Below are positions 36,342 through 37,837 of a DNA stretch of 38,835 nt, piece by piece. Position 1 is the stretch's first letter. Every line of letters begins with the position of its first letter. The notes beneath the pieces were generated by a model. That model was given only the letters and a program-made list of their open reading frames with translations. It made no database searches and was not told the DNA's origin. Made by a program: the position numbers and the translations under genes. The DNA comes from Gemmatimonadaceae bacterium (GTDB lineage Bacteria; Gemmatimonadota; Gemmatimonadetes; Gemmatimonadales; Gemmatimonadaceae), in the NCBI GenBank assembly GCA_022843265.1, contig JALHNZ010000032.1, positions 1-38,835 on the forward strand, in the 5' to 3' direction.

Positions 36342-36387
36342 CGGGCAGTGTCACGCACATTCGAATCCACGTGCGGAGAGCTGCCCG
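36342..36387 (+). terminator. Candidate stem after the M16 gene
   Basis: CGGGCAG (36342-36348) pairs with CTGCCCG (36381-36387), and inside it CGCAC (36354-36358) with GTGCG (36371-36375). It lies 12 bases after the stop codon. There is no T-tract, so it may be a weak terminator, an mRNA-end stabiliser or part of the regulatory region that follows. Confidence 0.4.
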
Positions 36388-36414
36388 AAGTCCATGTTAT
36401 TGCTTGACTTCGGG
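36384..36414 (+). promoter_or_regulatory. 9-bp inverted repeat overlapping the -35 box (operator candidate)
   Basis: CCCGAAGTC (36384-36392) and GACTTCGGG (36406-36414) form a perfect inverted repeat with a 13-base spacer, about two helical turns between half-site centres. The right half covers most of the -35 hexamer. The left half shares bases with the stem at 36342-36387, so the two RNA folds exclude each other. A DNA operator is suggested by geometry only. Confidence 0.45.
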
Positions 36415-36432
36415 GCTATGACCTCGTAAACT
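36404..36432 (+). promoter_or_regulatory. Sigma70-type promoter for DUF512-der
   Basis: TTGACT (36404-36409) and TAAACT (36427-36432) are separated by exactly 17 bases. Five of six and four of six positions match the consensus. Transcription would start near 36439, at the base of the first leader hairpin. This is the best promoter match in the window. Confidence 0.62.
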
Positions 36433-36437
36433 TTCTC

Positions 36438-36516
36438 AGATAGGGCGCGGTGTGTTCGCGCCTATCTCGACCGGGGGCGGACCGCGATGCGGTCTCGGCC
36501 CCCGTTCTGTTCTGTC
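36438..36516 (+). promoter_or_regulatory. Double-hairpin 5' leader, possible attenuator
   Basis: Hairpin 1: 36438-36449 pairs with 36457-36467 (11 bp with one bulged G, 7-base loop). Hairpin 2: CGGGGGC (36472-36478) with GCCCCCG (36498-36504), enclosing GACCGC (36480-36485) / GCGGTC (36489-36494) around a GAT loop. Hairpin 2 is followed by a T-rich stretch (TTCTGTTCTGT), so it looks like an intrinsic terminator or attenuator inside the leader of the next gene. It could instead end transcripts from upstream. I recognise no known riboswitch. Confidence 0.5.
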
Positions 36517-36541
36517 ATCGTCTGCGCGGCGTCCTGTTCGT

Positions 36542-37837
36542 ATGGTTCGTGTCACCGCTGTCCAACCCGAAAGCATCGCCGACGCCATTGGCATCGAGCC
36601 CGGGACCGAACTGCTGGCCGTCAATGGTCGACCGTTGGAAGACTTCCTCGACTGGGAGTTTCTCACGGCCGACGATGCGTTTGTCATTGCGGCCCGTTTG
36701 CCCGACGGCACCGAAATCGAATACGACATTGAGCGCGATGCAGACGACGTGATGGGCGTGGTGCTCGCGCCTCCCACCGTGCGTCGATGCGCCAATCGCT
36801 GCGAGTTTTGCTTCATCGAAGGGCTGCCCAAAGGGCTACGCAAGCCGCTTTACATTCGCGACGATGACTACCGACTTTCGTTCGCGTATGGCAACTTCGC
36901 CACGCTGAGCAACGTCAAAGAAAAAGACATTCAGCGCATTCTCGAGTATCGGCTATCGCCATTGTATGTGTCAGTGCACGCCACGCCGTGGGAAGCGCGC
37001 AAGGTGCTGCTGAACAATCCGCGCGTGCCGAACATTGTGGAGCAGCTCACGCGTCTGGCCGATGGCGGCATCAGTTTCCATGGGCAGATGGTGATCGTGC
37101 CGGGCCTCAACGATGGCGCCGTGCTCGAAGAGTCCCTCCACGATCTCTACGAGCTCGGAGACGCCATGATGTCCGTGGCGATTGTGCCGGTGGGCGTGAC
37201 GCAGTTCTCGCATTTGTATACAGGCAAGTCCATGGATCCCGACGCGTCGGGCGCGCTGCTCGACCATGTGGATCGCTGGGCGGCAAAAGCGTTGGCCGAA
37301 CGGGGCGAACGGTGGGTGTACGGGTCAGACGAGTTGTACTTGCTGGCCGGACGCGAACTACCGGCGCCCGAGTTTTACGGCGAATTCCAGCAGATCGAAA
37401 ACGGTGTTGGTGCTGTCGCCTCGCTCAGGCAGCGCGTGGACCGTGGATTGTCGCAATTGCCGCGACTCGACGGTCGGCGCATTGGTGTGGTGACCGGCGT
37501 GTCCATGGCGCCGCTGATGCCTGAGTTGCTCGACAAGCTCACACTGCAGACCGGTGCATCGTTTGTGCTCATTCCGGTGGAGAACTCCCTGTTTGGCGCG
37601 ACCACCACGACCGCAGGGTTGCTGGTCGGCGCCGACATTCGCCGAGCGCTCGAGGGTCGACATGACCTCGATCTCGCTCTGATTCCGGCCGAGTGCATCA
37701 ACGACGACGGCCTCTTTCTTGACGACGAGCCGTTTGTGACCGTGCGTGAAAGTTTGCCTATGCCTGTTTTTCCTTCTTACGATTTTATAGATGCGCTGGT
37801 GCCGGAAGGCAGCTGTGCCTGGAGTCCCGCAGCATGA
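36542..37837 (+). CDS. PDZ / radical SAM / DUF512 protein
   Basis: The 431-residue protein has an N-terminal PDZ-like domain (about 1-60; AIGIEPGTELLAVNG), a cluster motif C83xxxC87xxC90 (CANRCEFC) of radical SAM type, and a C-terminal DUF512 domain with GVVTGVSMAPLMPELLDKL (about 319-337). Homologues of this architecture occur in Firmicutes and cyanobacteria, and in several Clostridia the gene also sits next to der. The function is unknown; the pairing with der suggests ribosome assembly or modification. I chose ATG 36542: the longer GTG 36452 lies in the loop of the leader hairpin and adds residues without homology. It overlaps der at ATGA. Confidence 0.88.
   Translation: MVRVTAVQPESIADAIGIEPGTELLAVNGRPLEDFLDWEFLTADDAFVIAARLPDGTEIEYDIERDADDVMGVVLAPPTVRRCANRCEFCFIEGLPKGLRKPLYIRDDDYRLSFAYGNFATLSNVKEKDIQRILEYRLSPLYVSVHATPWEARKVLLNNPRVPNIVEQLTRLADGGISFHGQMVIVPGLNDGAVLEESLHDLYELGDAMMSVAIVPVGVTQFSHLYTGKSMDPDASGALLDHVDRWAAKALAERGERWVYGSDELYLLAGRELPAPEFYGEFQQIENGVGAVASLRQRVDRGLSQLPRLDGRRIGVVTGVSMAPLMPELLDKLTLQTGASFVLIPVENSLFGATTTTAGLLVGADIRRALEGRHDLDLALIPAECINDDGLFLDDEPFVTVRESLPMPVFPSYDFIDALVPEGSCAWSPAA

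Follow-up and report, generated by a model that had tools for sequence, protein, structure and literature searches.

The window analysed here is a stretch of 38,835 nucleotides from a Gemmatimonadaceae genome, whose nearest named relatives are metagenome-assembled genomes labelled Gemmatimonas sp. (86–90% protein identity). The region under study is the intergenic interval that extends from the stop (36329) of an M16 peptidase gene to the ATG (36542) of a DUF512 gene, itself followed by der (Table 1). A sequence-only reading had described the DUF512 product as an uncharacterised radical SAM protein, an overstatement because DUF512 is already known as a cobalamin-binding radical SAM domain; proteins containing it bind cobalamin and a crystal of a PDZ-bearing homologue exists (PMC11659888).

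An in-frame GTG at 36452 would lengthen the DUF512 protein across both leader hairpins (36452–36541), and automatic annotation may call it. Such a coding reading of the leader was rejected, as the extension yields no conserved protein and conservation begins at MVRV (36542), as the leaderless relatives described below show. In the relatives read, the operon continues beyond DUF512-der as plsY-gpsA-MerR-surE, where plsY, gpsA and surE are presumed identities taken from sequence resemblance and the usual gene order. No tRNA was found in the upstream region of the window. In the two other families of the order, several genomes (L039, L043, L044, L045 and L047) have a tRNA-Gly(CCC) gene immediately before DUF512, and positions 36356–36373 of the window carry a T-arm-like CACATTCGAATCCACGTG within an inverted repeat, perhaps a tRNA relic.

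Table 1. Positions of the genes, promoter elements and leader features in the window
Feature	Positions	Strand	Basis
Upstream dyad half GAAGTC	36387–36392	+	Dyad GAAGTC-N13-GACTTC, centred near -39
AAGT box, 12 nt upstream of the -35	36388–36391	+	96–100% conserved in 77 promoters; 1.5–2.0 bits per column, genus-weighted
-35 region TTGACTTC (family consensus TTGAYTTC), downstream dyad half	36404–36411	+	Scan, conservation, near-uniqueness per genome
-10 region TCGTAAACT (family consensus CTCCTANNTT)	36424–36432	+	Scan, family conservation
Predicted transcription start, conserved TNA, A36438 or G36439	36438	+	T and A 98% conserved
Hairpin 1, foot at predicted start	36438–36467	+	Folding; covariation of the equivalent hairpin in sister genus g23
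Hairpin 2, family motif GGGGGRAGA..TCTTCCCCC	36472–36504	+	-26.1 kcal/mol; similar in 14 genera
T-rich tail TTCTGTTCTGT, degenerate U-tract	36505–36515	+	TTCTGTTCTG in three congeners; canonical T runs in g23 and g24
PDZ - radical SAM - DUF512 (cobalamin-binding) protein	36542–37837	+	Pfam PF17820, PF19238, PF04459
der (engA), ribosome biogenesis GTPase, cut by contig end	37834–38835	+	NCBIfam TIGR03594

The promoter and its candidate regulator

A promoter scan of the 1.7-kb region returned two sites of the quality of TTGACT (36404–36409), a 17-nt spacer and TAAACT (36427–36432), against 0.2 expected. Transcription is inferred to start at about 36438 from this sigma-70-type promoter. The earlier proposal of a start near 36439, at the foot of a hairpin, holds up on sequence evidence: the predicted start falls on A36438 or G36439, at the foot of hairpin 1 rather than within or beyond the hairpins, and nothing else in the region is as well conserved across the family as the promoter. 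The TNA motif at the start keeps a fixed distance from the -10, and in leaderless relatives its A lies 0–3 nt before the ATG.

DUF512 turned up in 166 of 179 genomes of the family, and about 110 of these supplied the upstream regions for the analysis. The consensus AAGT-N12-TTGAYTTC-N11-CTNNTANNTT-N3-TGA precedes the DUF512 gene in 26 of the 32 genera sampled; across these 26, the AAGT, TTG, TTC, TA, TT and TNA columns mostly carry 1.5–2 bits, against about 0.1 bits in the 40 nt upstream. Of the 50 sites matched by an exact 14-base form of the pattern in 99 genomes, 47 lie at DUF512-der, while the reversed pattern in the same strict form gave none in those genomes. The remaining three matches represent one orthologous site in genus g22, and a longer 20-base form, allowing up to three mismatches, mostly returned one match per genome. 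These genome match counts rule out a general promoter of the family. The two other families of the order did not show the motif. With a motif conserved across genera and nearly unique within each genome, as would be expected of a single-target promoter, most genera of the family appear, on sequence evidence, to use a rigid promoter almost only for the DUF512-der operon.

Two observations from elsewhere in the order can be set beside this. The g22 site (L133:1501–1545) precedes a gene for a roadblock-like small protein and a response regulator. In L036 and L043, from another family, a different shared promoter-like stretch, TTGAAGTTGCGTCGTTTGCTTCAGAAACTCCTTGA, lies before DUF512 and has a GAAG..CTTC dyad inside its spacer.

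GAAGTC and GAYTTC can be read as inverted half-sites, with 13 nt between them and a centre near -39 if the start is A36438. The complementarity of the flanking bases exceeds that of shuffles only weakly (p about 0.02, representatives), so the dyad is a reading rather than a proof. This extra element, AAGT...TTC, which forms an imperfect dyad, probably binds a putative regulator devoted to the DUF512-der operon. For the link to ribosome status that the sequence-only reading found attractive, the analysis gave evidence neither for nor against. A motif of more than 20 positions that is kept family-wide yet is nearly restricted to one operon would imply a regulator with a single essential target, and such a target would tie Der, the ribosome-assembly GTPase, to a cobalamin-dependent radical SAM enzyme. 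The motif offers a direct handle on the role of the DUF512 protein and on the reason why DUF512 travels with der. Neither this promoter nor this leader was described in the literature searched, a miss that is weak evidence, and nothing relevant on transcription starts or leaders in Gemmatimonadota turned up.

In relatives L168, L169, L170 and L171, a MerR-family gene (125–140 aa; L168:9339–9725) lies a few kilobases downstream of DUF512 in the same direction. One match per genome was found in all 40 genomes tested, and in the source genome the gene is on another contig (G000:C145). As a regulator of the promoter, the MerR protein at the operon end was set aside on this distribution: motif-less genomes are among the 40 that carry it, so that gene and motif are not correlated, and it stands only as a candidate. 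Nor does the promoter have MerR-type architecture, in which the dyad sits inside a -35/-10 spacer of 19–20 bp; here, with a spacer of 17, the dyad instead overlaps the -35.

Leader hairpins in the window and its relatives

Hairpin 1 of the window consists of AGATAGGGCGCG-GTGTGTT-CGCGCCTATCT, with 12 pairs, a terminal G-U among them, a single bulged G and a folding energy of -16.4 kcal/mol, and the hairpin that had been proposed at the start is thus present. Hairpin 2 has 14 pairs and a 2-nt bulge and is followed by TTCTGTTC, in which five of eight bases are T. The stable two-part hairpin of the sequence-only reading is borne out, but its T-rich tail is interrupted and, having no TTT run, is not a canonical terminator in the window. 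Folding of the growing transcript forms hairpin 1 first and hairpin 2 next. In the full leader, the 5' arm of hairpin 1 pairs over a long range with the region before the ATG, leaving hairpin 1 a probability of 0.04 and hairpin 2 one of 0.94; this alternative fold was found only in the window leader.

The leaders of the family fall into five classes. The first has none, with the ATG 0–3 nt from the start in g5, g7, g19, g20, g25, g30 and a few g24 genomes. The DUF512 mRNA is predicted to be leaderless from the same promoter in L011, L024, L097, L100 and L183–L189. Since several genera would make a leaderless mRNA from this promoter, the leader cannot be essential to expression. In the second class, that of g24, a GAGCCGC..GCGGC hairpin stands directly at the start and is followed by about six or more T. 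The third, that of g23, has two hairpins in 83–86 nt, the second then mostly followed by TTTTCGTC. The window genus forms the fourth, with two hairpins in 100–104 nt and the tail TTCTGTTCTG in three of five species, and the fifth comprises g15, g21, g22, g10 and g14, where hairpin 2 mostly has no T run. A hairpin 2 with a 5' arm of four or more G and a C-rich 3' arm, typically GGGGG(R)AGA..TCTTCCCCC, recurs in 14 genera.

Whether these hairpins are simply what GC-rich sequence folds into can be judged only in part from energy. The fold of the whole window leader has a z of -2.16, with 4 of 200 shuffles folding as well; this is modestly beyond chance, and comparative evidence therefore has to carry the leader structure. 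Among 23 g23 leaders, 92.7% of cells pair, against 89.1% when shuffled and 39–51% when slid. Double changes occur there in 9 of 27 pairs (4.8 shuffled, 2–6 slid) and in 28 cells, where shuffling gave 10.0 and sliding no more than 11. The comparison with shuffles is inflated by relatedness, a flaw from which the slid control is free. For hairpin 2 across the family (34 leaders), 82.6% of cells are paired, and double changes affect 10 of 13 pairs and 42 cells, against 16.5 cells shuffled and 14–23 slid. The stems thus show compensatory changes in relatives beyond both controls, as expected of structured RNA under selection, and we conclude that both hairpins are real in sister genus g23 and that hairpin 2 is real in the family. 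Although the z of only about -2 would suit chance hairpins, this covariation and the conservation over 14 genera make that explanation scarcely credible. For hairpin 2 it is already refuted; for hairpin 1 of the window it keeps some probability. In the window alone this hairpin is not beyond chance (p = 0.15), and the window genus keeps it by position only, its stems differing in L002 and L003.

A covariance model built from g23 gave strong matches only at DUF512 within g23 and failed to recognise the window. The idea of a dispersed element or a regulon was rejected, since the best other matches of this model (G180 and G060) lie off DUF512 and resemble unrelated hairpins. Searches against Rfam, at the gathering score and at E<=1, gave nothing relevant, with one unrelated match (0.16).

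The gene functions make a protein- or ligand-binding leader attractive, whether autoregulated by Der, DUF512 or a ribosomal protein or acting as a cobalamin- or SAM-type riboswitch, and the selection on the hairpins also speaks for it. Against it, the loops are unrelated between and within genera, no Rfam class matches, no conserved alternative fold exists in g23 and the leader is absent in several genera; we regard it as improbable. A ligand riboswitch in particular is unlikely because the hairpin-2 loops vary freely, Rfam gives no match and both g23 hairpins are near-fully formed together.

Proposed termination and other possible roles of the leader

T content after the leader hairpin is 2.6 of 8 bases against 1.5 for leader composition (22 genera, Wilcoxon p = 0.0004), an enrichment carried mainly by g1, g17, g23, g24 and g26. 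T-tailed terminators occur in 27 of 28 g23 leaders and in 6 of 6 g24 leaders, and also in seven further g24 genomes; the window genus, with 5 of 8 T and no TTT run, has its degenerate tail in the same place between promoter and gene. No mutually exclusive antiterminator was found in g23, where hairpins 1 and 2 are each about 0.8–1.0 probable in one and the same fold, so that no switch is evident. Of the earlier suggestion of an attenuator or a ligand- or protein-sensing leader, the attenuator-like layout survives, with canonical T-tailed terminators in two sister genera, whereas ligand sensing finds no support, given the variable loops, the lack of a competing conserved fold and the absence of an Rfam match. 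A terminator with a T tail that lies between the promoter and the first gene is attenuator anatomy, and this is most likely the ancestral role of the leader.

The reading that we tentatively prefer, at slightly less than even probability, is a promoter regulated for a single target, with a leader behind it that would damp or insulate transcription of DUF512-der in an attenuator-like manner. RNA polymerase would start at about 36438 on the dedicated promoter, where a regulator devoted to the operon would bind the AAGT...TTC dyad, and the nascent RNA would fold at once, forming one strong hairpin or two. Hairpin 2, either an acting promoter-proximal intrinsic terminator or a derivative of one, would lower and insulate DUF512-der expression without ligand sensing, acting on the operon's own transcripts as well as on read-through that arrives from the upstream gene. 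Termination in the window genus would be at most partial because its U-tract is degenerate. Most genera, the window's included, have lost the U-tract or carry it interrupted while keeping the hairpin, and termination may therefore not be the conserved function. Of the possible control points, the promoter itself bears the strongest mark of evolution.

That the hairpin is kept without a U-tract in g10, g15, g21 and g22 also suits static 5'-end hairpins, an account in which hairpin 1 shields the mRNA against 5'-end-dependent decay, hairpin 2 leaves the start-codon region unpaired and the leader regulates nothing. It is also favoured by the hairpin foot, which many genera place 0–3 nt from the start; p<=0.05 was reached by 21 of 55 representative leaders, with a combined p of 6e-13. 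This account leaves the T runs kept in g23 and g24 unexplained, and in the window genus hairpin 1 does not exceed chance; we consider it a serious rival, though somewhat unlikely.

Alternatively, the leader terminator could be an insulator only, blocking read-through from the upstream co-directional gene while being too close to the start to affect the operon's own transcripts. Genera with T-tailed leaders mostly have no terminator upstream of the promoter (g23 1/28, g24 0/6), and g2, g3, g10, g12, g15, g29, g32 and g47 have an upstream terminator and none or few in the leader. Counted by genus, this upstream-versus-leader contrast does not reach significance (Fisher p 0.22), and a terminator downstream of the promoter should hit the operon's own transcripts too, at least with leaders of 80–100 nt, which leaves the insulator-only account quite unlikely.

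A bolder proposal, and a very doubtful one, is that the invariant element loads a factor onto RNA polymerase during initiation, which then passes the start-proximal terminator, a Q-like processive antitermination switch serving one housekeeping operon; its milder form is a regulator of this operon alone, retained by most of the family, that would control a cobalamin radical SAM enzyme and Der.

Among known systems, ANTAR target RNAs have two hexaloops with A1 and G4. The present leader resembles these double-hairpin targets in its two hairpins and the T-rich tail after the second, but the hairpin-2 loops listed vary freely and, like the hairpin-1 loop of the window, are not A1/G4 hexaloops. 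With stabilising 5'-terminal stem-loops of the ompA type it shares a hairpin whose foot coincides with the predicted mRNA 5' end or lies no more than 3 nt away, although the second hairpin and the T runs are not explained by this likeness. Attenuators of the trp and rplJL type similarly place a strong GC hairpin between promoter and first gene, with a T-rich tail as seen here in the sister genera; in contrast to these, no leader peptide and no competing antiterminator were found in the present leader, the U-tract is degenerate in the window genus and the leader is missing in several genera. The promoter, finally, is comparable to class II activator and operator-overlapping -35 promoters in having inverted half-sites near -39 that overlap the -35, but differs from them in that its half-sites are 19 bp apart and occur as essentially one site per genome.
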